Below the pieces are notes generated by a model, which saw only the letters and a list, made by a program, of their open reading frames with translations, was not told where the DNA came from and made no database searches. Shown one piece after another: positions 17,902 through 59,757 of a DNA stretch of 64,000 bases. Position 1 is the first letter of the stretch. Every line of letters begins with the position of its first letter. Position numbers and translations under genes: made by a program. The stretch lies in NCBI RefSeq assembly GCF_022682305.1, contig NZ_CP093528.1:2369501-2433500 (forward strand), written 5' to 3'. This stretch comes from Shinella zoogloeoides. GTDB lineage: Bacteria > Pseudomonadota > Alphaproteobacteria > Rhizobiales > Rhizobiaceae.

Positions 17902-19065
17902 ATGTCGAAATGGTTCAGAGAGAATGCCCCGATCAGCGCCCGTGAGCTGACGGACGAATTCCAGCGGCTGAAGCGCGGCTCGGTCACCCGCCGTCACTTC
18001 CTCGGCGTCACCGGCCTCGGCCTTGCTGCCGCCGTCCTCGCGCGCCAGCCCGGTCTCTTCAATTCCGCAGCCTATGCGCAGGAAGACCTCGGCACGTCCA
18101 TGTCGCTCGCCACCTGGCCGAACTACCACGACCCTGCGACCTTCGAGGCCTTCACCGCCAAGACCGGCGTCGCCGTCGAGGTCAACGTCTTCGGCTCGAA
18201 CGAGGAGATGCTGGCCAAACTGCAGGCCGGCGGCACCGGCTGGGACCTCTTCGTTCCCACCAACTACACGATCTCCACCTATGCAGGCCTCGGCCTGATC
18301 GACCCGCTCGACCTCACCAAGGTGCCGAACTTCGACCCCAAGACGCAGAACACCCGCTTCACCAATGAAGGCACGGTCGACGGCAAGGTCTACGCGCTGC
18401 CCAAGAACTGGGGCACGACCGGCATCGCCGTCAATTCGGACAAGGTGAAGTCCAAGGTCACGAGCTGGAAGGAGTTCTTCGAGATCGCCATGACCGAGGC
18501 CGACGGCCGCACCATGGTGCACGACTACCAGCTCACCACCATCGGCAACGCCCTCGTCTCGCTCGGCTTCTCCTTCAACTCGATCAAGCCCGAGGAGCTT
18601 GCCAAGGCCGAGGAGCTGCTGATCAAGGTAAAGCCGCATCTCTACGCCATCAACAGCGACTACCAGCCCTCCATGCGCTCCACCGATGCCTGGATGACCA
18701 TGTGCTGGACGAACGACGGCGCACAGCTCAACCGCGACATGCCGGAAATCCAGTTCACGCTCGGCACCGACGGCGGCGAGATCTGGTCCGACTTCTACGC
18801 CGTGCCGACCAGCGCCACCAACAAGCCGGCCGGCTACGCGCTGCTGAACTTCCTGATGGATCCGCAGAACGCGGTGCGCGAGCACATCGCCAACGGCGCG
18901 CCGACCACCGACAGCCGCGTTATCGCCCTGCTGCCGGCCGAGATCACCGGCAACAGGATCGTCTATCCGGACGAAGCCGCGCTGACGCCGCTCGAATTCG
19001 GCGCGGCGGTGACGCTGACCGATCCGGCGCGCGCGGAACTGATGGCGCGGTTCAAGTCGGCCTGA
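17902..19065 (+). CDS. ABC transporter binding protein (PotD-like, Tat-exported)
   Basis: A 387-residue polyamine-type binding protein. A long N-terminal region ends in the twin-arginine motif TRRHFLGVTG (about 29-38) and a hydrophobic stretch, with probable cleavage near AYAQ (about residue 58). The mature part starts with SMSLATWPNYHDP, the usual first strand of PotD proteins. SMRSTDAWMTMCWTNDG contains the acidic/aromatic residues that bind the cationic ligand in PotD. A repeat element follows before the first permease gene. Confidence 0.9.
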   Translation: MSKWFRENAPISARELTDEFQRLKRGSVTRRHFLGVTGLGLAAAVLARQPGLFNSAAYAQEDLGTSMSLATWPNYHDPATFEAFTAKTGVAVEVNVFGSNEEMLAKLQAGGTGWDLFVPTNYTISTYAGLGLIDPLDLTKVPNFDPKTQNTRFTNEGTVDGKVYALPKNWGTTGIAVNSDKVKSKVTSWKEFFEIAMTEADGRTMVHDYQLTTIGNALVSLGFSFNSIKPEELAKAEELLIKVKPHLYAINSDYQPSMRSTDAWMTMCWTNDGAQLNRDMPEIQFTLGTDGGEIWSDFYAVPTSATNKPAGYALLNFLMDPQNAVREHIANGAPTTDSRVIALLPAEITGNRIVYPDEAALTPLEFGAAVTLTDPARAELMARFKSA

Positions 19066-19073
19066 CGGAACAG

Positions 19074-19224
19074 GCCCCTCATCCGGCTGCCGCCACCTTC
19101 TCCCCGCAAGCGGGGAGAAGGGACCTGGAGCACCCTATTGCCTCATCATGGGAATGGGGCGCCACCACACATTTCCTTCGCCCCGCTTGCGGGGAGAAGG
19201 TGGCCGGCAGGCCGGATGAGGGGC
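19074..19224. repeat. Rhizobial palindromic repeat element (copy A)
   Basis: The 151-bp element is bounded by GCCCCTCATCCGG and CCGGATGAGGGGC. Its inner hairpins are CTTCTCCCCGCAAGCGGGGAGAAG and the CCCCGCTTGCGGGG type. The same family recurs at 33521, 35199 and 44701. It lies inside the operon, between the binding-protein gene and the first permease gene. Confidence 0.85.
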
Positions 19225-19256
19225 AACCCTCGCATATTCGCAACAGGACCCACGAA

Positions 19257-20123
19257 ATGCCCCTGACGACGACGGCAAAGAAACGGCTGGTGACGGCGGC
19301 GCTGCTCGCGCCGGCCTCCATCTGGCTGTTCGTCTTCCTCGTGCTGCCCTTCATCGCCATGGTGGTCTTCTCCGTCGGCGAGCGCGGACCTGCGGGTGGC
19401 TATCAGGCGGCCTTCACCTTCGCGCAATACGCCAACCTGCCGGCCCGCGCCGCCGCCTACTGGAACACGCTGATGCTCGCGCCGGCCGGCGCCTTCCTCT
19501 GCCTGCTGGTGGCCTATCCGACGGCCTATTATCTCGCCGTCAAGGCCGCGCCGCGCCACCGGCTGATGCTGGTTTCGCTGGTCGTCGTGCCGTTCTGGAC
19601 GAGCCTTCTGGTGCGCACCTATGCCTGGATGTATATCCTGGGCTCGCGCGGCATCCCGAACCTCCTCGACATGATCGGCATCGAAGACGTGCGCCTGCTC
19701 AACACGCCGGGCGCGGTGCTGCTCGGCATCGTCTACGGCTACCTGCCGCTGATGATCATGCCGATCTATGTCAGCCTCGAAAAACTCGACCGCCGGCTGC
19801 TCGAAGCCTCGGCCGACCTCGGCGCGAAACCGGTCTCCACCTTCTTCTCCGTCACCCTGCCGCTCTCCCTGCCCGGCGTCATGACGGGCGTCGCGCTCGT
19901 CACGATCCTGCTGCTCGGCGAATATCTCATTCCGCAGCTCCTCGGCGGCGGCAAGGTCTTCTTCATCGGCAATGCGCTGGTCGACCTCTTCCTGCAATCG
20001 CGCAACTGGCCCTTCGGCTCGGCCATCGCCGTCACGCTGGTCGCCATCGTGGTCGTGGTGCTGACGGTCGCCATGCGCATCGCCTGGAAAGTCTCCGGCA
20101 CGAGACAGGTGGACCTCGTCTGA
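19257..20123 (+). CDS. ABC transporter permease (PotB-like)
   Basis: A 288-residue permease with six hydrophobic segments. Its EAA loop is LEASADLGAKPVSTFFS (about residues 189-205), which contacts the ATPase. The start is ATG 19257; the frame is open far upstream but that stretch is the binding-protein gene and the repeat in another phase. The stop overlaps the next start (TGATG). Confidence 0.9.
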   Translation: MPLTTTAKKRLVTAALLAPASIWLFVFLVLPFIAMVVFSVGERGPAGGYQAAFTFAQYANLPARAAAYWNTLMLAPAGAFLCLLVAYPTAYYLAVKAAPRHRLMLVSLVVVPFWTSLLVRTYAWMYILGSRGIPNLLDMIGIEDVRLLNTPGAVLLGIVYGYLPLMIMPIYVSLEKLDRRLLEASADLGAKPVSTFFSVTLPLSLPGVMTGVALVTILLLGEYLIPQLLGGGKVFFIGNALVDLFLQSRNWPFGSAIAVTLVAIVVVVLTVAMRIAWKVSGTRQVDLV

Positions 20124-20947
20124 TGCGCGCGCTGATAACCTCCGTCTACCTCTTCCTCTATACGCCGATCGCGCTGGTCGTGCTGTTCTCGTTCAATGCG
20201 GGGCGCAGCGCCAGCGAATTCACGGGCTTCTCGACGCAATGGTACGGCAAGGCGCTCGCCAATCCGTTCCTCGTCACCGCGTTGCAGAACAGCCTGATCA
20301 TCGCCCTGACCAGCGCCACGCTCGCCGCCGTCTTCGGCACCATGGCCGCGCTCGGCCTCGAACGCCTCGGCAGCCGCGCCCGCCTCCTCTTCGACGGCCT
20401 GCTCGCCGCCGCCATCGTCGTGCCGGGCGTCGTCATCGGCATCGCGACGCTGGTCGCGCTCGTCGCCGTCTTCGGCGCGGTCAATCCCGCCATCGCCGCG
20501 CTCTGGCCGGGCGAGAGGCCACCGCAGCTCGGCCTCGGCTACGGCTCGATCATCGCGGCGCACGGCCTTTTCACCATGGCGCTCGTCACCATGATCGTGA
20601 AGGCGCGCATCGCCACGCTCGGGCGCGATATAGTGGAAGCCTCGGCCGATCTCTACGCCACGCCCCTCACCACCTTCCGCGATATCGTGCTGCCGCAGAT
20701 ATTGCCCTCGGTGCTGGCCGGCTTCCTGCTCGCCTTCACCTTCTCCTTCGACGATTTCATCGTCGCCTTCTTCGTCGCCGGCTCCAAGACGACGCTGCCG
20801 ATCTACGTCTTCGCCTCCATCCGCCGCGGCGTGACGCCGGAGGTCAACGCCATCGCCACCATGGTGCTGGTCGCCTCGCTCTTCCTCATCCTCGTCGCCC
20901 GCCTGCTGATGCGGGAAAAGACGACGAAACCGCCTGCCGGAGAATGA
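20123..20947 (+). CDS. ABC transporter permease (PotC-like)
   Basis: A 274-residue permease with six hydrophobic segments. Its EAA loop is VEASADLYATPLTTFRD (about residues 172-188), and SFDDFIVAFFVAG follows, as in PotC proteins. It is translationally coupled to the preceding gene and ends one base before the SDR gene. Confidence 0.9.
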   Translation: MRALITSVYLFLYTPIALVVLFSFNAGRSASEFTGFSTQWYGKALANPFLVTALQNSLIIALTSATLAAVFGTMAALGLERLGSRARLLFDGLLAAAIVVPGVVIGIATLVALVAVFGAVNPAIAALWPGERPPQLGLGYGSIIAAHGLFTMALVTMIVKARIATLGRDIVEASADLYATPLTTFRDIVLPQILPSVLAGFLLAFTFSFDDFIVAFFVAGSKTTLPIYVFASIRRGVTPEVNAIATMVLVASLFLILVARLLMREKTTKPPAGE

Positions 20948-24365: not shown

Positions 24366-26033
24366 TCAAGCATCTCCGGTCCTGACATGCCCGATGCCCT
24401 TCTTTCCGATCTCCTCGAAGGACTCCTCGTAGCCCGCATCCGCATAGCGGATCACGCCAAGCGAGGTGTCGTTGGTCAGCGCATGCTCCAGCCGCTCCGC
24501 GCCCGCCGCCGTGCCGTCGGCCACCAGCGTCACGCCGCAGCTCGTCATGTAGCCTGCATAGCCGCCGCCGCCGGAATGGACGACGACGAGGTCGGCCATC
24601 GAGGAGCAGAGCAGCATGGCGTCGAGCAGCGGCCAGTCGGCGATGGCGTCTGAACCGTCCTTCATGCGCTCCGTCATGATGTTCGGGTGCGCCATGGCCC
24701 CGGCATCGAGATGGTCGCGCGAAAAGGCGACGGGGCCCTTCAGTTCTCCCGCCGCGACCAGCCGGTTGACGGCGAGCGCCAGTTCCGTGCGCTCGCCGTG
24801 GCCGAGCCAGGCGATACGGGCCGGGAGGCCCTCGAAGGGGATGTTTTCACGCGCAAGGCGGATCCAGTTGGTGACGATGCTGTTGTCCGGGAACATCTCC
24901 AGCACGAGATCGTCGATACGGGCGATGTCACTCTCCACGCCCGAAAGCGCCATCCAGCGGAACGGACCTATGGCCCGCGCGAAAAGCGGCCTGAGATAGG
25001 CTTCCGTGAAGATCGGGATGTCAAAGGCGTTGGCGACGCCCCCTTCCCGCGCCTGTGTGCGGATAAGATTGCCGTTGTCGAAGACCTCGGCCCCCATCTT
25101 CTGGAATTCCAGCATCGCCGAGACGTGCTCGACGATGGAGGCCCGGCTCGCCGCCATAAGCTGCCCTTGCCCGTCATCACGCAGGCCCTTCACCTGGTCG
25201 AGGCTCATGCCCTTCGGCACATAGCCGTAGACGAGGTCGTGCGCCGAGGTCTGGTCGGTGACGATATCCGGCACGATGCCGCGCCGGGCGATCTCCGGGT
25301 AGATTTCCGCCGCATTGCCGACGAGACCGATGGAGGTCGCGCGCTTCTCCTGCACGGCTGCGTCGATCATCGCCAGCGCCGTGTCCAGATCCGGCGCGAC
25401 ATGCTCCAGATAGCCCACGGCCTTGCGCTTGGCGGCCCGCTCCGGATCGATATCGACGCAAAGGATCGCCGCGCCCGCCATGCGGCCGGCTAGCGGCTGC
25501 GCGCCGCCCATGCCGCCGAGGCCGGCGGTGAGGATGAAACGACCGGCAAGGCTGCCGCCGAACCGCTTTTCCGCGATGCGCATGAAGATTTCATAGGTGC
25601 CCTGGATGACGCCCTGACTACCGATATATTGCCATGCGCCCGCCGTCAGTCCGCCCCAGCAGATCAGCCCCTTGCGCTGAAGCTCGTAGAACACCTCGGC
25701 CTTCGCCCATTGGCCGACGATATTGCAGTTCGCCATGATGACGAGCGGCGCCTTGGCATGGGTCTTGAGCAGGCCCACCGGCTTGCCGGACTGGATGACC
25801 AGCGTCTGGTCCTCGTCCATTTCCGTCAGCGCCTTGACGATGGCCCTGTGCGAGGCCCAGTTGCGCGCCGCCTTGCCGAGCGCGGCATAGACGATCAGGT
25901 TGTCCGGGTCCTCGCCGACCGAAAGGACGTTCTCCAACAGACGCAGCAGCGCCTCCTGCCGCCAGCCCTTGGCGCGCAGCGCGTCGCCGCTCGGGATCGG
26001 ATAGTTCGGATGGCGCGGATTGGGTTTGGGCAT
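24366..26033 (-). CDS. Urocanase-family hydratase, probable thiourocanate or S-methyl-thiourocanate hydratase
   Basis: A 555-residue homologue of urocanate hydratase, of full family length. The NAD-binding loop GLGGMGGAQP (171-180), the Tyr in LIVYAALGKAARNW (about 49) and SRDHLDAG (about 438) are kept. Two active-site regions differ from true HutU. The Cys of the PARICW segment is Ala (PARIAW, Ala408), and the usual HHGGGVGMGFSQHSG reads VHSGGGGYAGYMTSCG. The last-gene position behind a lyase without MIO, a DUF917 protein, a hydantoinase and a carbamoylase points to a sulfur-substituted urocanate from ergothioneine rather than urocanate. Plain hutU is the alternative, but no other hut genes are present. 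Confidence 0.8.
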   Translation of the reverse strand: MPKPNPRHPNYPIPSGDALRAKGWRQEALLRLLENVLSVGEDPDNLIVYAALGKAARNWASHRAIVKALTEMDEDQTLVIQSGKPVGLLKTHAKAPLVIMANCNIVGQWAKAEVFYELQRKGLICWGGLTAGAWQYIGSQGVIQGTYEIFMRIAEKRFGGSLAGRFILTAGLGGMGGAQPLAGRMAGAAILCVDIDPERAAKRKAVGYLEHVAPDLDTALAMIDAAVQEKRATSIGLVGNAAEIYPEIARRGIVPDIVTDQTSAHDLVYGYVPKGMSLDQVKGLRDDGQGQLMAASRASIVEHVSAMLEFQKMGAEVFDNGNLIRTQAREGGVANAFDIPIFTEAYLRPLFARAIGPFRWMALSGVESDIARIDDLVLEMFPDNSIVTNWIRLARENIPFEGLPARIAWLGHGERTELALAVNRLVAAGELKGPVAFSRDHLDAGAMAHPNIMTERMKDGSDAIADWPLLDAMLLCSSMADLVVVHSGGGGYAGYMTSCGVTLVADGTAAGAERLEHALTNDTSLGVIRYADAGYEESFEEIGKKGIGHVRTGDA

Positions 26034-26079
26034 AGTGGTCTCCTTAGATTGGTTTTCCGGGAGGCTTGCCCCCTTCCCC

Positions 26080-27174
26080 TCAGTCGCCCAGCGCATACCG
26101 CGCCAGCTCGATCCCCATCGCCTTCTCCACCGAGGGATAGACGGTCGGGTCGAGCACGCTGGAGGCCAGCGGGATGATCGTCTTCGGCACATGCAGCACG
26201 AAGATCCTCATGCCGACTTCGAGCTGGCCGACGCTGAGCGGCTCGCCCTCGGGCGAGAGCGTGGTGATGACGTCCGGGAACGTGGCGAGGCGTTTGCCGT
26301 CGGCCAATTCCACCGCCATGTACTCATTCATCACATGCAGCACCGCCGCGCTATCGCCCGTGCCGAGCGTCACCGTGCCGATATCGAAGGCTTCCCTGGT
26401 ATAGACCACCGACTTGTCGGTGATCGTACCCTCGGAAAGGATCGCGCCGCCCGTCGTCTTCACGATGGCGTCGATGATCGCCGAACCGCCCCGGCCCTCC
26501 GCCGCGATGATCGCCTCGCCGAGCTTCAGCGCCAGCGAGATGCCGCCGAGCGCCGCGTTCCTGCGCACATAGGAGGCGCGCAGCGGATTGCGGCAGGAGG
26601 CGATGAAGCCGCCGGACATGTCAGAGGCCGTGCGCAGGATGGGCGAGACCTTCGCCGTCGCGCCGCGCACGACGAGTTCGATATAGCGGTTCTCTTCGCG
26701 GTTGCCGCCGACCGCCGTCTGGATCATCTGCTCCGGCGAACCGGCCATGCCGATGGAGCCCATGTCGCCCGTCGGGTGCGCGCGCATGTCGCCGACGGCG
26801 TCCAGAACCTTCGTGCCGAGGATGGCGGAGGGCAACCAGCCGTTCAGCGTCGAGGACTTGCCGTTCTGCCCCACCATCAGCGCGGCGACCTTCTCGCCCA
26901 GCGCCTCCTGCAAAAGCTCCACCGCCTTGACGTAGTCGACGCCGCGCATTTCCCAGGGCGTGGTGGAGGCCGGCGCGCCGATGGCGGCGGCCGTCGCCAC
27001 CCAGTCGTCATCCGAAAGCTCGTCGATGGAGACCAGTTCCGGCTTGCCGATGGAGACCGCCGCATAGCCGAGCATGCGCCCGTGATCGGCCCAGCCGCCG
27101 CCGCCGGCCGCATAGACCGAGCCGCCCTTGACCGCCGCCTCGACGTCTTTTTCCTTTAAAATCCGGCCCATCAC
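26080..27174 (-). CDS. DUF917 / S-methyl-thiohydantoin desulfurase-like protein
   Basis: A 364-residue protein of the DUF917 family, full length. Characteristic stretches are AAGGGGWADHG (about 22-32), GAPASTTPWE, PTGDMGSIGMAG and a C-terminal beta-rich part. To my knowledge the family was renamed after an enzyme that removes methanethiol from an S-methyl-thiohydantoin in S-methyl-ergothioneine breakdown. The neighbours here (urocanase-like hydratase downstream, carbamoylase and hydantoinase upstream) are exactly those such a step needs. The start overlaps the carbamoylase stop (TGATG). Confidence 0.8.
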   Translation of the reverse strand: MMGRILKEKDVEAAVKGGSVYAAGGGGWADHGRMLGYAAVSIGKPELVSIDELSDDDWVATAAAIGAPASTTPWEMRGVDYVKAVELLQEALGEKVAALMVGQNGKSSTLNGWLPSAILGTKVLDAVGDMRAHPTGDMGSIGMAGSPEQMIQTAVGGNREENRYIELVVRGATAKVSPILRTASDMSGGFIASCRNPLRASYVRRNAALGGISLALKLGEAIIAAEGRGGSAIIDAIVKTTGGAILSEGTITDKSVVYTREAFDIGTVTLGTGDSAAVLHVMNEYMAVELADGKRLATFPDVITTLSPEGEPLSVGQLEVGMRIFVLHVPKTIIPLASSVLDPTVYPSVEKAMGIELARYALGD

Positions 27175-28448
27175 ACGCCCTCCTGAATCACATCCTGAAG
27201 TTTTTCGTCCAGTTGAATCACTGCATTAAGAAGCACCGCCGCGCCGAGCGCGATATCGTCGATCTCGGCGAATTCCTCCGGCGCATGGCTACGCCCGCCA
27301 CGGCACGGAACGAAGATCATCGCCGCCCGCGTCACCTTCGCCATGAAGGCCGTGTCGTGTCCCGCGCCCGAGGCCATGCGCCGGTGGCTCGCGCCAGCCG
27401 CACCGCAGGCCGCGTCGAGGACGTCCAGCACCAGCGGGTCGCCGGGCGTCGGCATGTTGTCGGAGATGCGGCGCGGCGTTGCGATATTGGTACCGGTCTC
27501 GCGCGAAATCTCCGCCGCAAGCCGCTCGACGGAAGCGGCGAAGACATCCATCGCCGTGCGCTCTTCCGCCCGCGCGTCGATCAGCAGGCGCGCCCGCGAC
27601 GGCACGACATTCGCCGCATTCGGCTCGATGGAGAACTCCCCCACCGTCGCCGTGAAATGCCCCGGCCCCGTCGCCAGCGACTTCGCCAGGGCCTCGACGC
27701 CGGTCACTAGCCGCGCGGCGGCGGCGAGCGCGTCGGCGCGGCTGCCCATCGGGGTCGTCCCGGCGTGGTCCGCCCTGCCCTCGACAACGATCTCGATGCG
27801 GGTGATCCCGGCAATCGCCGTCACGACGCCGATATTCAGCCGGTCCGTCTCCAGCACCGGCCCCTGCTCGATATGCAGCTCGAGGAAGGCCGCGATATCC
27901 CTGCGCGCCTCGACGGCGATCCGCGCCGGATCGCCTCCGGCGTCGCGAATGCCCTGTTCCAGGGTCAATCCGCCGCTCCGCCGCGCCAGCCAGTCCTCCG
28001 GCAACACGCCCGCCATGCCGCGACTGCCGATGCAGGAAACGCCGAAGATCGAGACTTCCTCGGCGAGAAAATCCACCACCTCCAGATCGTGGTCGAGCTC
28101 GATGCCCCGATCGGCCAGCGCCCGCGCCACCTCCAGAGCCACCGCGACACCGGCGATGCCGTCATAGCGCCCGCCGTCCGGCACGGTATCGGAGTGCGAG
28201 CCGAGCATGATCGTGCCGAGACCGGGCTTTTTGCCCGGCCGCCGGGCGACGAGATTGCCGGCGGCATCCACGCGCGCCTCCAGCCCCGCCGCCTTGAATT
28301 TCTCTTCCACAAACGTGCGGCCCGCCGGGAACAGGGCGGTGAAGGCGCGGCGCGTATAGGGTCGGCCGGGCTCGGTGATCCGGGCGAGACCGTCGATCAC
28401 ATCCGCAATGCGGGCGGGATCGACCGGCAGGTTGGTCGCGCCGGTCAT
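27171..28448 (-). CDS. M20-type hydrolase, probable N-carbamoyl-L-amino-acid (carbamoylglutamate) amidohydrolase
   Basis: A 425-residue zinc hydrolase of the allantoate amidohydrolase/L-carbamoylase group. Metal ligands are visible as SHSDTVPDGGRYDG (His85, Asp96), the EE pair of LAEEVSIFG (130-131), LELHIEQG (His192) and the C-terminal GRSHAPEEF. A dimerisation lid lies between about 215 and 330. In the proposed pathway it would release glutamate, CO2 and ammonia from N-carbamoylglutamate; allantoate or another ureido acid is the alternative. It overlaps the gene before it in an ATGA and the gene after it in a TGATG, so the operon is tightly coupled. Confidence 0.87.
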   Translation of the reverse strand: MTGATNLPVDPARIADVIDGLARITEPGRPYTRRAFTALFPAGRTFVEEKFKAAGLEARVDAAGNLVARRPGKKPGLGTIMLGSHSDTVPDGGRYDGIAGVAVALEVARALADRGIELDHDLEVVDFLAEEVSIFGVSCIGSRGMAGVLPEDWLARRSGGLTLEQGIRDAGGDPARIAVEARRDIAAFLELHIEQGPVLETDRLNIGVVTAIAGITRIEIVVEGRADHAGTTPMGSRADALAAAARLVTGVEALAKSLATGPGHFTATVGEFSIEPNAANVVPSRARLLIDARAEERTAMDVFAASVERLAAEISRETGTNIATPRRISDNMPTPGDPLVLDVLDAACGAAGASHRRMASGAGHDTAFMAKVTRAAMIFVPCRGGRSHAPEEFAEIDDIALGAAVLLNAVIQLDEKLQDVIQEGV

Positions 28449-29827
28449 CGGACCGCGCCCGCCACGACAAGCGTCGGCAGCGGCCGCACGAAGGCGCCCG
28501 CGCCCGGCGCGGCAAGCACCGTTTTGCCGTCGAAAGCGAGCCGGCCGCGCACATATGTGGCCGAGACACGCCATGGCAGGCGAATGCCGTTATAAGGCGA
28601 CCAGCCGACGACGTTGTGACCGCTCGCCGCCGCGTCGTAGGTATAGGGTTCAGGCGTCAGCACGGTGATATCGGCATCCTTGCCGGCTTCCAGCGCACCC
28701 TTCACATGGTCCAGCCGGAAATGCCGCGCCGGATTCAGCACCATCAGTTCGGCGGCGCGCGTCAGCGGGATACCTCGCTCCAGCACACCCTTGACGAAGA
28801 GCGCAACCATGACCTCCAGTCCCGGCACGCCGGAGGCGTTGGCCAGCATGTCGGGATTGGTCTTGCGGTCCTCCGACCAGCTCACATGGTCTGTGGAAAC
28901 CAGCGTGACATTGCCTGCCGCGACATGCCGCCAGAGTTTTTCCACCTCGGCGCGCGGGCGGATCGGCGGATTAATCTTCGCCTTGCCGCCAAGGCGGGCG
29001 ACATCGTTCTCCTCATCGAGCGTGAGATAGTGGATGCAGCACTCGATGGTCGCCCGATGCCCCTGCGCCCGGTAGGCGGCGGCGATCTCGTAGCCACGGC
29101 CGAGCGAGCAATGCACGACATGCGCCGGGCATCCGGTCTGAGCGCCGGTCTCGTAGATCTGGTTGGAGGCGAGCAGTTCGGTGAGCGTTGGACGCGACAG
29201 GCCATGCGCGCGGTAGTCCGTGATACCCGCCGCCTTTACCTTGGCAATCGCCGCCCGCACCGCTTCGTCATCCTCGTTGTGCACGCCGGCCGTCAGCCCC
29301 GTCGGCGCGATGGCGCGGAAGCAATCCTCCAGCAGCGCCGCCGGAATGCGCGGAAAGCGTTTCGGATCGGTGCCGAAAGTGGAAAACTTGAAGGCCGCGA
29401 CGCCGGCCCCGACCATCTCGCCGATGCGCGCCGGCCCCTCCTCTGGATCGACGGTGCCATAGAGCGCGAAATCCACGCGCGCCTGCGGCGAGGCGTGATC
29501 GACCTTGATCTTCACGGCCTCGGCCGATGAGACGAGGTTGCCCTCGTCATAAGGCATGTCGACGATGGTCGTGACGCCGCCGGCCGCCGCCGAGCGCGTC
29601 GACCAGATGAAATCCTCCTGGTTCTTCTGCGAGAGCGAATGGACCTGCGCATCGATAGCGCCGGGCAGGATCAGCGCGCCGGAGAGGTCGTGGCGTTCCC
29701 TCGCTGCGGGCATCGCGCCCTGGCCGACATGCGCCACCTTGCCGTCGCGCACCGCCACATGTCCACCCTCCACGATACGGTCGGCAAGAACCACGGTGCC
29801 TTTCAGAACGAGATCGAAATCGGCCAT
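28445..29827 (-). CDS. Dihydropyrimidinase/hydantoinase-like amidohydrolase
   Basis: A 460-residue cyclic amidohydrolase with the TIM-barrel layout of hydantoinases and allantoinases. Visible metal-site elements are the carbamylated-Lys candidate in AAFKFST (Lys147), GVHNEDDE (His183), HVVHC (His239) and STDHVSWS (Asp313). The first metal motif, usually H-x-H after PG-x-(I/V)-D, reads DAQVHS, so the first His is Gln61. This is a real change in the sequence and may mean a single-metal site. In context it should open the ring of hydantoin-5-propionate; allantoin or dihydropyrimidines are alternatives. It starts 11 bases after the lyase gene. Confidence 0.82.
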   Translation of the reverse strand: MADFDLVLKGTVVLADRIVEGGHVAVRDGKVAHVGQGAMPAARERHDLSGALILPGAIDAQVHSLSQKNQEDFIWSTRSAAAGGVTTIVDMPYDEGNLVSSAEAVKIKVDHASPQARVDFALYGTVDPEEGPARIGEMVGAGVAAFKFSTFGTDPKRFPRIPAALLEDCFRAIAPTGLTAGVHNEDDEAVRAAIAKVKAAGITDYRAHGLSRPTLTELLASNQIYETGAQTGCPAHVVHCSLGRGYEIAAAYRAQGHRATIECCIHYLTLDEENDVARLGGKAKINPPIRPRAEVEKLWRHVAAGNVTLVSTDHVSWSEDRKTNPDMLANASGVPGLEVMVALFVKGVLERGIPLTRAAELMVLNPARHFRLDHVKGALEAGKDADITVLTPEPYTYDAAASGHNVVGWSPYNGIRLPWRVSATYVRGRLAFDGKTVLAAPGAGAFVRPLPTLVVAGAVR

Positions 29828-29838
29828 TTGGGCCTCCG

Positions 29839-31377
29839 TCAGGGCTTGAGGGCGAAGAAGGCGTCGAAATCCGCCATGGGCGCGGCCTCGACGAAGGCGG
29901 CGAGCGCCTCGGGGCTGGCAAGGTCACGGTCGAGCGCCTCGATCTCGGCGGAAAGCGGCCGGTCCTTGCGGTAGAACGGGCTGATCGCCCGCGTGCGCTG
30001 GTAGGCGATGGCCGCCACGCCCTCGACATTGTCGCCAGCAAGATCGACAGCCTGGGCGGACAGCAGGGCTTCCAGCGCGGCCATCTGGCGAAGGTCGCGC
30101 ACCTGGCTTTCCATGCGCTCGACGATGAGCGGTAGGAAGGTCGCCTCCTCCTCCAGCCCGCCGGCAACCACGATGGACTGTGCCGAGATCGGCACCGCCA
30201 GCGACTGGATACGCATGTAGAGTTCGACGGCGAGTTTCAGAAGCGGCCCGAAGCCCGTCGCCGCCTCGCCGGGCGCGACGAGATTGACCGGCAGATTGCG
30301 CCGGACCCCGTTGGAAAGCAATACGCAGCGGTTCAGCACGTTGCGGGCGAGATGCGCGAAACCCGTCTGCGCCGCCTCGACATAAAGCGTGGTGGAGAGC
30401 GGCAGCGAACCGCCCGAGGCCATGACGTGATCGTCCATCACGACCGGATTGTCGTCCGACTGCGCCGTCGCCTCGACGATGCGCTCGGCGGCGTTCATCA
30501 GCGTATCGAGGCAGGCGCCGAAGACCTGCGCGGTCATGCGCAGGCTCAGCGGATCGTGGATCGCCGAGGGCGTCGGCCAATGGCCGGAGGCCGCCTGCGC
30601 CTCGAACCAGCAGCCGGCCATCGCCTCGCCATGGGCCGAAAGCCGCGCGGCCACCCGCCAGGGATCGGCGGACGCCCCGAGCGCCAGCGAGGAGAGAACG
30701 CCCGTCACCATCAGGTTGCGGATCGCCTTCGCCGCCTCGCGCACCACATTGGCGGCCGCCGCATGGGAGATGGCGTTGACGCTGAGCGCGGCCAGCGCAT
30801 CGCGCGGCTGCATGCGGTAGGGCGTCAGCCCCGCGCGCTTCAGCGCCTCCGTCGCCGGCAGGCGCTCGCCGCCGTACCAGGCTTCGCCCTCGCCCGTCAG
30901 CACCGCCGCGACCTGCCCCATGAGGCCGATATCGGCGCAGCCCATCGAGCCGTGCCGCCGCACGACGGGCACGACATCCCGCTCCAGCAGCGAAAGAAAG
31001 GCGTCGATCAGCTCCGGACTGCAACCGGAATAGCCGCCGAGCGCCGTGTTGACGCGGATCGCGATGGCCTTGCGCACGATGGGCAGGGCGAAGGGTTCGC
31101 CCGTGCCGAAGTGATGCGCCTTGACGAGACTGTTGTTGAACTCGACGAGATCGTCCGCCGTCCAGAGCTTGTCCTTCATCGAGCCGACGCCGGTATTGGC
31201 GCCATAGATCGGAAGACCCGTCGCCAGCCGGTCGGTGACGATGCGGCGCGCCGTGCCGATCCTGCCCATGCCCATCTCGCAGGCGACCGGCCGCCGCGCA
31301 CCGCTGCCAATGGCCTCCAGCGTCGCGAAATCCAGCGGCTGACCGGTGAGGTAGAGCGTATCGGCGGAAGCGAGCAT
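29839..31377 (-). CDS. Aromatic amino acid lyase homologue without the MIO triad, probable ergothionase
   Basis: A 512-residue protein of the histidine/phenylalanine ammonia-lyase fold. The first catalytic Tyr is kept (Tyr58 in IYGANTGVG), and the context GSMG...LTGEGEAW matches the MIO loop. However, the Ala-Ser-Gly that forms MIO is replaced: the loop reads GSMG-CAD-IGLMG (Cys147-Ala148-Asp149), with no Ser and about one residue shorter. The later catalytic Tyr of the QDxYSLR motif is Leu277 (HDPLSLR). Ergothionase, which eliminates trimethylamine from ergothioneine, is a relative of these lyases that works without MIO. With four pathway-matching genes downstream this is the best assignment; hutH is unlikely. 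Confidence 0.78.
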   Translation of the reverse strand: MLASADTLYLTGQPLDFATLEAIGSGARRPVACEMGMGRIGTARRIVTDRLATGLPIYGANTGVGSMKDKLWTADDLVEFNNSLVKAHHFGTGEPFALPIVRKAIAIRVNTALGGYSGCSPELIDAFLSLLERDVVPVVRRHGSMGCADIGLMGQVAAVLTGEGEAWYGGERLPATEALKRAGLTPYRMQPRDALAALSVNAISHAAAANVVREAAKAIRNLMVTGVLSSLALGASADPWRVAARLSAHGEAMAGCWFEAQAASGHWPTPSAIHDPLSLRMTAQVFGACLDTLMNAAERIVEATAQSDDNPVVMDDHVMASGGSLPLSTTLYVEAAQTGFAHLARNVLNRCVLLSNGVRRNLPVNLVAPGEAATGFGPLLKLAVELYMRIQSLAVPISAQSIVVAGGLEEEATFLPLIVERMESQVRDLRQMAALEALLSAQAVDLAGDNVEGVAAIAYQRTRAISPFYRKDRPLSAEIEALDRDLASPEALAAFVEAAPMADFDAFFALKP

Positions 31378-31407
31378 GTTTCAGAAGCCTGTACGGAAAC
31401 GGCTTCC

Positions 31408-31419
31408 CGTTCGCGAACG
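31408..31419. promoter_or_regulatory. Palindrome in the leader of the ergothionase-like operon
   Basis: The perfect 12-bp palindrome CGTTCGCGAACG lies about 30 bases upstream of the lyase start codon. A small-repressor operator or a leader hairpin is possible. Confidence 0.4.
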
Positions 31420-31465
31420 CATGAAGCCCTGGGTGAATGCCATGATCCGAACCTATACTCCAAAA

Positions 31466-31484
31466 TTCGCACGGTTCATGCGAA
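31466..31484. promoter_or_regulatory. Candidate operator upstream of the ergothionase-like operon
   Basis: The perfect inverted repeat TTCGCA-N7-TGCGAA lies between the AraC-type gene and the lyase gene, both on the minus strand. An A+T-rich stretch with a TATAGG-like -10 (minus strand, 31452-31457) lies just downstream of it in the direction of transcription. The operon therefore probably has its own regulated promoter here. Confidence 0.45.
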
Positions 31485-31504
31485 AAGCAGACCTATCCAC
31501 TCTC

Positions 31505-32479
31505 CTACCCCTTCGCCCCGGCCCGCAGCCGCCGCCGGGTCTCCGTCGGGCTTTCATGGTAATGCGCGCGGTAGCTGCGCGAGAAGGCCGAGGAGGAGTT
31601 GAAGCCGGTGAGCGCCGCGATGTCGGCAAATTCCGCCTTGGTCTCGATCACCTTGCGCCGGGCGGCATTGAGGCGCAGCGCGAGATAATGCTGGTGCGGG
31701 GCGACGCCCATTGATTCCTGGAAGAGGTCCTGGAGATGACGCGCGCTGATGCCGACGCGCCGCGCAAGCCTCGCCAGCGTCAGGGGCGCGTCCACCGTCT
31801 CCTCCATCAGCCGCACCGCCTGGCTGACGCGCTGGTCGGCGACGCGCATGTTGCCGAGCGCCGGCACCTGCAGCAGGCCGCCGGTGCGCTCGTGCTCGTA
31901 GATGAAGAGCCGCGAGACCTCCAGCGCCAGCGAATAGCCCTGCCGGCGGCGGATGATCTCCAGCATCAGGTCGAGCGTCGGCAGAGAGCCGCCGGTCGTG
32001 ATGCGCTTGCCGTCGATGACATAGCGCTCGCGCATCACCGTGATCTGCGGATAGCGGGAAGCGAACTCCTCCATGTCCTCCCAGTGGATCGTCACGGAAT
32101 GGCCGTCGAGCAGGCTCGCCTCGGCGAGCAGCCAGCTTCCCGATTCGATGCCGGCCATCATGCTGCGGTGGCGCGCCGTCTGCGAAAGCTGGCGCCGGAG
32201 CAGCGGCGTTGCGCTCGTCTGCCATTGATAGCTGGACAGCACGAAGAGCGGCGCCGTCTCCCGCTCCGGCCGGAACACGCCATCGACCGGCACGGGAATG
32301 CGGCTACGCGTCTCGACGGGCGCACCGTCAGGCGAGAATATCCGCCAGCGATAGATGTCCTGCCCGGAGATACGGTTGGCCGCGCGCAGCGGCTCGATGA
32401 CCGAGGCGACGAGGATGAGGTTCGTCTCGGGCAGCACCAGAATATCGATGTCAAGCGTGTCGGAGGAAGGATCGAGCAT
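31505..32479 (-). CDS. GlxA/CdhR-type AraC-family regulator
   Basis: A protein of about 324 residues with an N-terminal DJ-1/PfpI-like (class I amidotransferase) domain that lacks an obvious catalytic Cys (IESGSWLLAEA at the nucleophile-elbow position). The C-terminal double HTH of AraC proteins has VGISARHLQDLFQESMG and FNSSSAFSRSYRAHY. This is the architecture of the carnitine regulator CdhR and the betaine regulator GbdR. The gene is divergent from a carnitine operon, which supports that role. The start is taken at ATG 32479 (MLDPSSDTLDI); ATG 32545 would add 22 residues. It may also act on the lyase operon that follows it on the same strand. Confidence 0.88.
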   Translation of the reverse strand: MLDPSSDTLDIDILVLPETNLILVASVIEPLRAANRISGQDIYRWRIFSPDGAPVETRSRIPVPVDGVFRPERETAPLFVLSSYQWQTSATPLLRRQLSQTARHRSMMAGIESGSWLLAEASLLDGHSVTIHWEDMEEFASRYPQITVMRERYVIDGKRITTGGSLPTLDLMLEIIRRRQGYSLALEVSRLFIYEHERTGGLLQVPALGNMRVADQRVSQAVRLMEETVDAPLTLARLARRVGISARHLQDLFQESMGVAPHQHYLALRLNAARRKVIETKAEFADIAALTGFNSSSAFSRSYRAHYHESPTETRRRLRAGAKG

Positions 32480-32532
32480 ATCGGGAGCATGGTCGCCGGT
32501 CTCTCGAATTGTCAAGAATGGATCCGAAAAGT

Positions 32533-32551
32533 GAAAGCATTGCATCCTTTC
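32533..32551. promoter_or_regulatory. Inverted repeat in the regulator/BKACE divergent region
   Basis: GAAAG-N9-CTTTC lies about 43 bases upstream of the BKACE start and 54 bases upstream of the regulator start. It is a weak candidate for the CdhR-type binding site, chosen only on symmetry and position. Confidence 0.3.
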
Positions 32552-32593: not shown

Positions 32594-33508
32594 ATGCCTT
32601 TAGCGATGAACCGAGACGTCTTCATCACCTGCGCCGTCACCGGCTCCGGCGACACCGCCGGCAAATCCCCCCACGTGCCGCGCTCGCCGAAACAGATCGC
32701 CGAATCGGCCATCGAGGCTGCTAGGGCCGGCGCCGCCGTCGTGCACTGCCATGTCCGCGATCCGGAAACCGGCGCGCCGAGCCGCCGCAACGATCTCTAC
32801 CGCGAAGTGACCGAACGTATCCGCGACGCCGAGGTCGACGTCGTGCTCAACCTCACCGCCGGCATGGGCGGTGACATGATCTTCGGCAACACCGAGCAGC
32901 CCCTGCCGCTGAACCCCAACGGCACCGACATGGCCGGCGCCACCGAGCGCGTTTCGCACGTCGCCGAATGTCTGCCGGAAATCTGCACGCTCGATTGCGG
33001 CACGATGAACTTCTCGCTCGGCGACTACGTGATGACCAACACGCCGTCCATGCTGCGCGCCATGGGTAAGATGATGACCGATCTCGGCGTCCGCCCGGAG
33101 ATCGAGGCCTTCGATACCGGCCATCTCTGGTTCGCCAAGCAGCTCGTCGAGGAAGGCATCATCGAGGATCCGGTGCTCATCCAGCTCTGCATGGGCATTC
33201 CGTGGGGCGCGCCGGACGATCTCAATACCTTCATGGCAATGGTCAACAACGTGCCGTCCAACTGGACCTTCTCGGCCTTCTCCATCGGCCGCAATGCCAT
33301 GGCCTACCCGGCCGCAGTCGTGCTTGCCGGCGGCAACGTCCGCGTCGGCCTCGAGGACAACCTCTATGTCGGCAAGGGCCAGCTCGCCACCAATGCGCAG
33401 CTCGTCGACAAGGCCGTCAACATCATCGAGAGCATGGGCGCCCGCGTCATCGGCCCGGCCGAAGTGCGCGAGAAGCTGAAGCTGACGAAGCGCGCGCCGC
33501 GCGGCTGA
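32594..33508 (+). CDS. Beta-keto acid cleavage enzyme (BKACE), probable 3-dehydrocarnitine cleavage
   Basis: A 304-residue BKACE (formerly DUF849) enzyme with the zinc-binding H-x-H in AAVVHCHVRD (His51, His53) and the catalytic-region Glu in VGLEDNLY. Members transfer the acyl part of a beta-keto acid onto acetyl-CoA. Beside a carnitine dehydrogenase/thioesterase fusion, the expected reaction is 3-dehydrocarnitine + acetyl-CoA giving betainyl-CoA and acetoacetate. A GGGAGAACG element lies upstream of the ATG. It is the first gene of a nine-gene operon ending at 44659. Confidence 0.88.
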   Translation: MPLAMNRDVFITCAVTGSGDTAGKSPHVPRSPKQIAESAIEAARAGAAVVHCHVRDPETGAPSRRNDLYREVTERIRDAEVDVVLNLTAGMGGDMIFGNTEQPLPLNPNGTDMAGATERVSHVAECLPEICTLDCGTMNFSLGDYVMTNTPSMLRAMGKMMTDLGVRPEIEAFDTGHLWFAKQLVEEGIIEDPVLIQLCMGIPWGAPDDLNTFMAMVNNVPSNWTFSAFSIGRNAMAYPAAVVLAGGNVRVGLEDNLYVGKGQLATNAQLVDKAVNIIESMGARVIGPAEVREKLKLTKRAPRG

Positions 33509-33694: not shown

Positions 33695-35197
33695 ATGAGC
33701 ACGACCATCATCAACAAGGCAGCCTGCGTCGGCGGCGGCGTCATCGGCGGGGCATGGGTCGCGCGCTTCGCGTTGGCCGGCATCGACGTGAAGGTCTTCG
33801 ACCCGCATCCGGAAGCCGAGCGTATCATCGGCGAAGTCATGGTCAATGCCGAGCGCGCCTATGGCATGCTCACCATGGCCCCCCTGCCGCCGAAGGGCAA
33901 AGTAACCTTCTGCAAGAGCATCGAAGACGCCGTGCAAGACGCTGACTGGATTCAGGAAAGCGTGCCCGAGCGCCTCGAACTGAAGCGGAGCGTCCTCACC
34001 CAGATCGATGCGGCCGCAAAGCCCGACGCCCTGATCGGCTCCTCCACGTCAGGCCTCATGCCAACCGATCTGCAGCGCGACATGAAGCATCCCGAACGCC
34101 TGTTCGTCGCGCATCCCTACAACCCCGTCTACCTGCTGCCGCTCGCCGAGCTCGTCGGCGGCCAGAGGACGTCGCGCGCCGTGCTCGAAGACGCCAAGGC
34201 CAAGCTCGCCCCCATCGGCATGAAGGGCGTGATCATCAACAAGGAAATCGAGGCCTTCGTCGGCGACCGCCTGCTCGAAGCCGTCTGGCGCGAAGGCCTC
34301 TGGCTGATCAAGGACGACATCTGCGACACGGAAACGCTGGATGACGTGATCCGCTATTCCTTCGGCATGCGCTGGGCGCAGATGGGCATGTTCGAGACCT
34401 ACCGCATCGCCGGCGGCGAAGCGGGCATGCGCCACTTCCTCGCCCAGTTCGGCCCCTGCCTCTCCTGGCCCTGGACGAAGCTCACCGACGTCGTCGACCT
34501 CGACGACGAGTTGGTGGAAAAGATCGCCAACCAGTCCGACGCCCAGTCCGGCGCGCGCGGTATTCGCGAACTGGAACGCATCCGCGACCAGAACCTCGTC
34601 GGCATCATGCATGCGCTGAAGGCCGGCGACGAAGGCCGCGGCTGGGGTTCGGGCAAGCTGCTCGCCGAATTCGAGGCGCACCTGTGGGCCAAGGCCGGCA
34701 AGGCGAAGGTCGAGGTCTCCTCGAGCGAACCGCTCCGCCTCGTCGACACCAAGGTCAATGCCGCCTGGGTCGATTACAACGGCCACATGACGGAGCACCG
34801 CTACCTCCAGCTCTTCGGCGATACGTCCGACGCACTGCTGCGCCTCATCGGCGTCGACTTCGCCTATGTCGAGGCCGGCCACAGCTACTACACGGTGGAA
34901 ACCCACATCCGCCATCTCGGCGAGGGCAAGCTCGGCCAGGCGCTCTACACGACGCTCCAGCTCCTCTCCTCGGACAAGAAGCGGCTGCACTTCTTCACCC
35001 GCATCCACGACGCCGCCACCGGCGACGTCATCGCGACCGCCGAGCAGATGATGGTCCATGTGGACTCGAAGGCCGGAAAGAGCGTCGATGCGCCCGAGGA
35101 CGTGCTGGCGAAGATCGCGCCGATTGCCGAAGCCCATGCCAAGCTGGCCGCGCCGGAAGGTGCAGGCCGCAGCGTCGGGCAGAGGAAAACGAACTAA
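33695..35197 (+). CDS. lcdH: L-carnitine 3-dehydrogenase fused to betainyl-CoA thioesterase
   Basis: A 500-residue two-domain protein. Residues 1 to about 320 are a 3-hydroxyacyl-CoA-dehydrogenase-like NAD enzyme (Rossmann loop CVGGGVIGGAW at 11-21, catalytic-region HPYNPVYLLPL near 135). From about 340 a hot-dog thioesterase follows (WVDYNGHMTEHRY near 357). The same fusion is known from rhizobial carnitine catabolism: the first part oxidises L-carnitine to 3-dehydrocarnitine, and the second frees glycine betaine from betainyl-CoA made by BKACE. The start is ATG 33695, with GAGGGA upstream; an ATG four codons earlier overlaps the ribosome site. Direct repeats B and C bracket the gene. Confidence 0.92.
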   Translation: MSTTIINKAACVGGGVIGGAWVARFALAGIDVKVFDPHPEAERIIGEVMVNAERAYGMLTMAPLPPKGKVTFCKSIEDAVQDADWIQESVPERLELKRSVLTQIDAAAKPDALIGSSTSGLMPTDLQRDMKHPERLFVAHPYNPVYLLPLAELVGGQRTSRAVLEDAKAKLAPIGMKGVIINKEIEAFVGDRLLEAVWREGLWLIKDDICDTETLDDVIRYSFGMRWAQMGMFETYRIAGGEAGMRHFLAQFGPCLSWPWTKLTDVVDLDDELVEKIANQSDAQSGARGIRELERIRDQNLVGIMHALKAGDEGRGWGSGKLLAEFEAHLWAKAGKAKVEVSSSEPLRLVDTKVNAAWVDYNGHMTEHRYLQLFGDTSDALLRLIGVDFAYVEAGHSYYTVETHIRHLGEGKLGQALYTTLQLLSSDKKRLHFFTRIHDAATGDVIATAEQMMVHVDSKAGKSVDAPEDVLAKIAPIAEAHAKLAAPEGAGRSVGQRKTN

Positions 35198-53953: not shown

Positions 53954-54790
53954 TCAGTCCGTGTCGCCTGCGCCGGCCGTCAGCATACGGTTGACGGTGT
54001 CGCCGGAGATGGCCGCTGAGAGTTTCGCAAAGCTGCCGTCCTTGAGGATGGCATCCATCTGCTCGGCGATGGCCGCGTGGGTGACGCGGGCGATCGTCGA
54101 GCCGAGCGAGATGCGGCGCACGCCGATATCGGCGAACTGCGGCACCGTGAGCTGGCGCAGCGGCCCGGCGGCAAGCGCGTTGACGGGCTTCGAGACGGAG
54201 GCGAGCACGCGCTTCAACTCCTCGACGCCGGGCGGCACCGGGACATAGAGCAGATCCGCCCCGGCCTTTTCGAAGGCCTGAATGCGGCGGATGGCTTCAT
54301 CCAGATCGTAGACGCCGTTCATCACGCCGTCGGCGCGGGCGCAGAGGATGAAGGGCCGGCCGAGCGAGCGGGCGGCGTCAGCGGCGGCGCGGATGCGCTC
54401 GACCGCGAGGTCGAAGGCATAGGCCGGGTTCCCGTCCACCATCTGCGTGTCTTCGATGGAGCAGCCGGAAAGGCCGACTTCGGCCGCAAGGCGGATCGTC
54501 TCGGCGACATCGTCGGGCGCATCGGCAAAGCCGTTCTCGAAATCGCCCGAGACGGGAAGCGGCGTGGCGCGCACGATGTCCTCGGCGTGTTTCAGCGATT
54601 CCTCGCGCGTCACCCGGCCCATATCGGGCCGGCCGAGCGTGAAGGCGAAGCCGGCGGAGGTGGTGGCGAGCGCGGCGGCTCCGGCCGACGCCATCATGCG
54701 GGCAGACCCCATGTCCCACGGATTGGGGATGACGAAGCAGCCCGACTGGTGCAGGTCATGGAACCGTTGATGGCGTTCGGCAAGGTTCAT
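53954..54790 (-). CDS. Isocitrate lyase/PEP mutase superfamily protein
   Basis: A 278-residue TIM-barrel protein of the PEP-mutase/isocitrate-lyase group. It has FVIPNPWDMGSARMM near residue 20, the metal-loop region SGDFENGFAD (about 80-89), SIEDTQ (about 112-117) and FILCARADG (about 146-154). The general carboligase/lyase chemistry on C-C or C-P bonds is known; the substrate is not. Its start overlaps the stop of the sarcosine-dehydrogenase-like gene, so it belongs to that operon. Confidence 0.83.
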   Translation of the reverse strand: MNLAERHQRFHDLHQSGCFVIPNPWDMGSARMMASAGAAALATTSAGFAFTLGRPDMGRVTREESLKHAEDIVRATPLPVSGDFENGFADAPDDVAETIRLAAEVGLSGCSIEDTQMVDGNPAYAFDLAVERIRAAADAARSLGRPFILCARADGVMNGVYDLDEAIRRIQAFEKAGADLLYVPVPPGVEELKRVLASVSKPVNALAAGPLRQLTVPQFADIGVRRISLGSTIARVTHAAIAEQMDAILKDGSFAKLSAAISGDTVNRMLTAGAGDTD

Positions 54791-59684: not shown

Positions 59685-59757
59685 TCTTACTCCCCTTCTT
59701 CGACGGGGATTTGTGGCAACCAAAGCGCCGGGGGACAAGCGGAGGATTTCGCTTTAT

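Follow-up and report, generated by a model that had tools for sequence, protein, structure and literature searches.

A probable ergothioneine-utilisation operon in Shinella zoogloeoides and the apparent loss of its LysR-type regulator gene

Does a locus that pairs homologues of histidine ammonia-lyase (HutH) and urocanase (HutU) degrade histidine, or does it serve the breakdown of the sulfur-containing antioxidant ergothioneine? The question is raised by a 64,000-nucleotide stretch of contig NZ_CP093528.1 of the soil bacterium Shinella zoogloeoides (positions 2,369,501 to 2,433,500), hereafter the window, which comes from a genome of 5.14 Mb in 7 contigs. Five minus-strand genes lie at positions 24366–31377 of the window, in the order lyase, hydantoinase-like protein, M20 hydrolase, DUF917 protein and urocanase homologue, and a preliminary description, made from the letters of the DNA, had proposed that together they convert ergothioneine or S-methyl-ergothioneine to glutamate. 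Judged from sequence comparisons, the window very probably carries a complete ergothioneine-utilisation (ert) operon. Coordinates, spacings (11, −4, −4 and 46 bp) and Pfam families (Lyase_aromatic, Amidohydro_1, Peptidase_M20, S-Me-THD_N/C, the former DUF917, and Urocanase, from lyase to hydratase) bear out a five-gene operon with the span, strand and order first described, and every gene has a single stop codon, at its end. A PADLOC search was uninformative. The five genes are:

29839–31377, minus strand: lyase, first gene of the operon, probable ergothionase (Pfam PF00221, PDB match, loop motif, tree and AlphaFold2 model)
28445–29827, minus strand: ErtD, hydantoin-5-propionate amidohydrolase (NF058538)
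27171–28448, minus strand: ErtE, N-carbamyl-L-glutamate amidohydrolase of the M20 family (NF058540)
26080–27174, minus strand: thiohydantoin desulfurase, former DUF917 (NF058529)
24366–26033, minus strand: thiourocanate hydratase, urocanase homologue (NF058530)

Four of these assignments rest on the equivalog models of NCBIfam 20.0, each with its own cut-off. The hydratase passes the thiourocanate hydratase model NF058530 (1049 bits, cut-off 930), the desulfurase the thiohydantoin desulfurase model NF058529 (603 bits, cut-off 440), the hydantoinase the ErtD model NF058538 (793 bits, cut-off 600) and the M20 carbamoylase the ErtE model NF058540 (591 bits, cut-off 520), the last protein scoring more on the broader Zn-hydrolase model NF009531 (651 bits, cut-off 486). 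The fold and family names of the proteins would also suit a second histidine-utilisation (hut) operon, as would the hydratase score on hutU, which at 683 bits exceeds the cut-off of 375. However, a full-length HutH/HutU pair is encoded elsewhere in the genome, separate from the ert operon, and serves as a control: the strain's own HutH reaches 722 bits on hutH (cut-off 539), while its own HutU reverses the pattern of the window hydratase, scoring 972 bits against hutU but reaching just 689 against the thiourocanate model, whose cut-off is 930. These model scores, rather than a tree, speak against placing the window protein inside true HutU. A thiohydantoin desulfurase, moreover, has no place in hut. 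The passing hutU score does show the route by which misnaming would happen, and the concern that simple homology would label such genes as histidine utilisation is real: one related plasmid record names them ‘aromatic amino acid ammonia-lyase’, ‘DUF917 family protein’ and ‘urocanate hydratase’, so that an annotated public record still presents ert genes as histidine or aromatic amino acid enzymes.

The lyase is covered by no curated NCBIfam model and scores 211 bits on hutH (TIGR01225), below the cut-off of 539. Its best sequence match in the PDB is the ergothionase 6s7j from Treponema denticola (E = 1.1e-53; best HutH 1e-39). As first noted, it lacks the residues that form the 4-methylideneimidazole-5-one (MIO) group: a one-residue deletion removes the Ala-Ser-Gly triad (GSMG-CA-D against GSVGASGD), giving the loop GSMGCADIG where the strain's own HutH has GSVGASGDL. 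The same deletion is present in homologues from T. denticola, Burkholderia arboris and Deinococcus. The loop that replaces the MIO site has an invariant Cys, Cys146 here, in window-type lyases and Glu in those three. A MIO pattern search also flagged locus L115, but its loop reads GSIGCADIG. The window lyase has an S-x-N motif in common with T. denticola and B. arboris; the corresponding residues are N-G-T in HutH and S-A-Q in Deinococcus. The DPLSLR motif is unspecific, as a third group of HutH-like paralogues carries it as well.

In a maximum-likelihood tree of 39 rows, 22 of them window-type lyases, the window type and the T. denticola, B. arboris and Deinococcus proteins fall on one side of a branch with support 100/96. 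A clade of the lyase with HutH is rejected by the approximately unbiased (AU) test (p-AU 6.6e-4), with a long-branch warning from the tool; after removal of two long rows the window-type lyases stay with T. denticola and B. arboris, at a support of 100/99, and the lyase plus HutH clade is again rejected (p-AU 1.1e-3), with long branches still a caution. The tree thus separates the lyase from true HutH. An AlphaFold2 model (predicted local distance difference test score, pLDDT, 85) matches the histidine ammonia-lyase (HAL) fold and again gives 6s7j as the top Foldseek match, at approximately 28% identity, while VIA-align returns tied Z-scores for ergothionase and HutH, so structure comparison does not discriminate between them. 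Taken together, these comparisons point to a probable ergothionase, which would convert ergothioneine to thiourocanate and trimethylamine. With a separate HutH/HutU pair, the lost MIO triad, the tree and the model scores all against it, we reject a second hut operon as barely credible.

Two further observations concern lyase-like genes of the genus. In one same-genus relative (genome G017, L068:5140–6756) a stop codon splits the lyase reading frame. The third HutH-like paralogue (L194–L202) occurs in 10 of 16 same-genus genomes searched, is absent from the window's genome and lacks the MIO triad wherever its loop was inspected (for example GSVG-YLTHAAAIG).

The four curated models together with the lyase phylogeny and loop motif support the proposed route from ergothioneine to glutamate. 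The names of the intermediates and the roles of the active-site residues are background on such enzymes, and the known bacterial five-step route, to which we return below, reportedly comprises the same five reaction types. First, the MIO-free lyase would strip trimethylamine from ergothioneine to leave thiourocanate, which the NAD-dependent urocanase homologue would hydrate to thiohydantoin propionate. The DUF917-family enzyme would then swap sulfur for oxygen with release of sulfide, the hydantoinase would open the ring to give N-carbamoyl-L-glutamate, and the M20 carbamoylase would yield L-glutamate, ammonia and CO2. We infer the lyase substrate, all of the enzyme activities and any use of the pathway as a nitrogen or sulfur source.

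The preliminary description had left the substrate as ergothioneine or its S-methyl derivative, and the first of these is now favoured. On the S-methyl route the lyase would act on S-methyl-ergothioneine and the DUF917 enzyme would free methanethiol from an S-methyl thiohydantoin; the Pfam family of the desulfurase is indeed named after S-methyl thiohydantoin desulfurase. Yet the hydratase scores 738 bits on the S-methyl model NF058531 (cut-off 880) and the desulfurase 286 on NF058532 (cut-off 450), whereas both pass the corresponding non-methyl models. Ergothioneine itself is therefore the likelier substrate, and we disfavour the S-methyl route as highly improbable. A further alternative draws on Agrobacterium radiobacter, which shares its family with the window strain, a point in its favour: the lyase would prefer ergothioneine sulfonate, and the operon would handle ergothioneine damaged outside the cell. 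The absence of a curated model for the lyase and its divergent active-site loop leave room for such a preference. The sulfonate pathway has been published (Yan et al. 2022, cited for A. radiobacter). However, the models that the downstream proteins pass describe thio intermediates and not sulfonates, and Pfam finds no oxygenase-like protein among the five operon genes, which makes this alternative very unlikely. Utilisation of ergothioneine itself is the reading that we carry forward.

How is the operon controlled? We compared it with two sets of loci: 16 from the same genus, and 80 named loci picked as the best desulfurase matches, with some genomes present in both. A divergent LysR-type gene lies between the lyase gene and an AraC-family gene in all 16 same-genus relatives examined, and a LysR-type gene is also present in 48 of the 48 named loci that have the AraC gene, other DNA separating the two in four of them (L107, L119, L124 and L129). 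An orthologue was detected in 50 of 65 complete named loci and not in the other 15, so the LysR gene is usual rather than universal. For the copy in the closest relative, L069, Pfam reports HTH_1 twice, along with a LysR substrate domain. There, lyase and AraC genes are separated by 171 + 1155 + 2 bp (approx. 1.33 kb); in the window the gap is 127 bp:

31378–31504, no strand: remnant of the lyase–LysR intergenic region, with the LysR gene gone and a junction at about 31490–31506 (alignment with closest relative L069)

A LysR orthologue was not found elsewhere in the window's genome, where the best match is 33% identical over part of its length. From these alignments the LysR gene of the relatives has evidently been deleted in the window strain, while the enzymes are still conserved.

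The remnant itself has changed. In an ungapped comparison, the 16 relatives share 38 invariant intergenic columns, of which 16 are altered in the window; when any single relative is omitted in turn as a leave-one-out control, it shows 0 to 2 changed columns. A locus from another genus, L082, which was kept out of the invariant set, differs at 13 of the 38 columns, mostly upstream. In the upstream part the window is changed at 10 of 14 columns (7 if slid by 9 bases) and L082 at 11 of 14; across the core and the downstream portion, the figures are 6 of 24 and 2 of 24. The conserved intergenic site appears to be degraded in the window strain. The enzymes themselves look to be under purifying selection, not relaxed, on the window's branch: the ert genes show 144 synonymous and 25 non-synonymous changes there and 134 and 31 on the sister branch, alongside 100/22 and 113/24, respectively, for seven control genes. 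If the deletion came late on that branch, it would not show in these numbers.

The gene that now lies directly upstream of the operon, on the same strand, encodes an AraC-family protein, followed by genes of carnitine breakdown:

31505–32545, minus strand: AraC-family (GbdR-like) regulator (PF12833; GbdR model 208 bits, below the cut-off of 480; synteny)
32594–33508, plus strand: beta-keto acid cleavage enzyme (BKACE) type protein, carnitine module (NF052387, 233 bits, below the cut-off of 382; synteny)
33695–35197, plus strand: carnitine 3-dehydrogenase/thioesterase fusion, carnitine module (NF005716, 899 bits, cut-off 592)

The BKACE gene is presumably one of carnitine breakdown. AraC and BKACE genes stand beside ert in 48 of the 80 named loci, and the carnitine dehydrogenase gene in 44 of those 48; as the three co-occur across loci, we count the AraC gene as part of the carnitine module. 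The earlier remark that the regulator lies next to the operon is therefore misleading, since the adjacent gene is that of the carnitine module and the LysR gene of the relatives is missing here. Elsewhere in the window (54790–59738) are two large proteins that look dependent on flavin adenine dinucleotide and resemble dimethylglycine/sarcosine dehydrogenases; in one of them the C-terminal part is GcvT-like (230 bits, under the cut-off of 300). With the carnitine genes, they make the stretch look rich in betaine breakdown.

Deletion of the LysR gene with conservation of the enzymes suggests that the operon is probably expressed by other means, with read-through from the AraC gene and constitutive expression as two possibilities. 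A promoter and terminator scan of the AraC–lyase gap gave no match, and chance expects about as few. A broader proposal has two parts: that the alphaproteobacterial lyases form a distinct class of MIO-free trimethylamine lyases with an invariant Cys at the MIO site, and that ert was handed to the carnitine AraC transcription unit after the loss of LysR, coupling the breakdown of two trimethylammonium betaines. As a whole we consider this proposal doubtful.

Where would the substrate come from? EgtD had no match in the genome, although no control genome scored over the cut-off either; with no such match, any ergothioneine would come from outside. An OsmF-type betaine ATP-binding cassette (ABC) transporter lies inside ert clusters of other families (OsmF model 501 bits, cut-off 400), and the window's genome encodes, away from the operon, a binding protein 71% identical to one from those clusters, adjoined by permease and ATPase genes on inspection by eye. 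This transporter is a candidate ergothioneine importer. An ABC transporter within the window (17902–20947) was considered for the same role and not adopted: its binding protein is PotD-like only below the cut-off, other genes lie between it and ert, and in 4 of the 16 same-genus loci (L067, L072, L075 and L077) the binding protein was found and the permeases were not. As to the trimethylamine released, a search for oxidation of the flavin-containing monooxygenase type, the one trimethylamine route sought, found a single match in the genome, a partial one that scores 28 bits (Pfam cut-off 22) over a quarter of the model.

The ert genes are regular in the genus and patchy outside it. The full set of five is present at every one of the 16 same-genus loci examined and at 65 of the 80 named loci, a recurrence which argues that the arrangement is not due to chance; the lyase was undetected in 12 of the 15 incomplete named loci. 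Within the genus, 17 of 21 genomes (the window's own included) have a thiohydantoin desulfurase that exceeds its cut-off; so do 20 of 61 relatives overall, 2 of 16 sampled genomes from other genera of the family and 5 of 385 genomes in the class sample (own counted). The thiourocanate hydratase exceeds its own in 6 of 398 genomes in the phylum sample (own counted).

Variant clusters were also seen. Two from Rhizobium (L141 and L145) have desulfurase and hydratase genes and no lyase detected, beside a polar amino acid ABC transporter and, by eye, an adjoining GntR-like regulator; L141, as tested, has an NtaA/DmoA-type flavin mononucleotide-dependent monooxygenase. On a Thalassospira plasmid (L206:12797–14212) a UbiD-family decarboxylase follows the hydratase, again with no lyase detected in the cluster. 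In genome G146 (L083:7690–13597) a lyase whose MIO triad is intact (ASGDL) adjoins a thiohydantoin desulfurase over cut-off, a thiourocanate hydratase (963 bits, cut-off 930) and a sulfide:quinone reductase-like protein (178 bits, below the cut-off of 525). This cluster is possibly a variant of the route that starts with a 2-thiohistidine ammonia-lyase, for which one literature search found no paper.

The pathway itself is already published and represented in model libraries, and the operon described here adds a member to it. A five-step bacterial ergothioneine catabolism was reported by Beliaeva, Leisinger & Seebeck (2021, ACS Chem Biol). Four of the five window enzymes pass NCBIfam models for that route; the window differs in the lost LysR regulator and in a lyase from a divergent alphaproteobacterial subgroup. 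The T. denticola ergothionase (6s7j) is the top sequence and Foldseek match of the lyase and shares with it the missing MIO triad and the S-x-N motif, but the two are only approximately 28% identical and differ in the MIO-replacing loop, with Cys in the window and Glu in T. denticola. The B. arboris cluster (L203) likewise has a desulfurase that passes NF058529 (606 bits) and holds hydantoinase, carbamoylase and hydratase homologues; gene order differs, however, and its ergothionase-like lyase (L203:16118–17749) is 28% identical to that of the window and, unlike it, has an apparent N-terminal signal peptide, by eye. The S-methyl-ergothioneine route has a homologous hydratase and desulfurase, with the window proteins below both cut-offs (NF058531 and NF058532).

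A characterised ergothionase from Burkholderia sp. HME13 is cited in the literature, and a thesis on an A. radiobacter ergothionase is cited in a review; that citation apart, no paper dealing with a regulator of ert, or with a rhizobial operon of this kind, was found among the open-licence literature listed. A 2026 paper that used the Burkholderia enzyme as a BLAST query describes ergothionase as rare, and itself cautions that such a search may miss divergent homologues. At 28% identity to the B. arboris protein, the window-type lyase is a case of this kind. Beyond the known route, the loss of the regulator relative to close relatives is an additional finding, and it offers a natural comparison for studying control of the operon.

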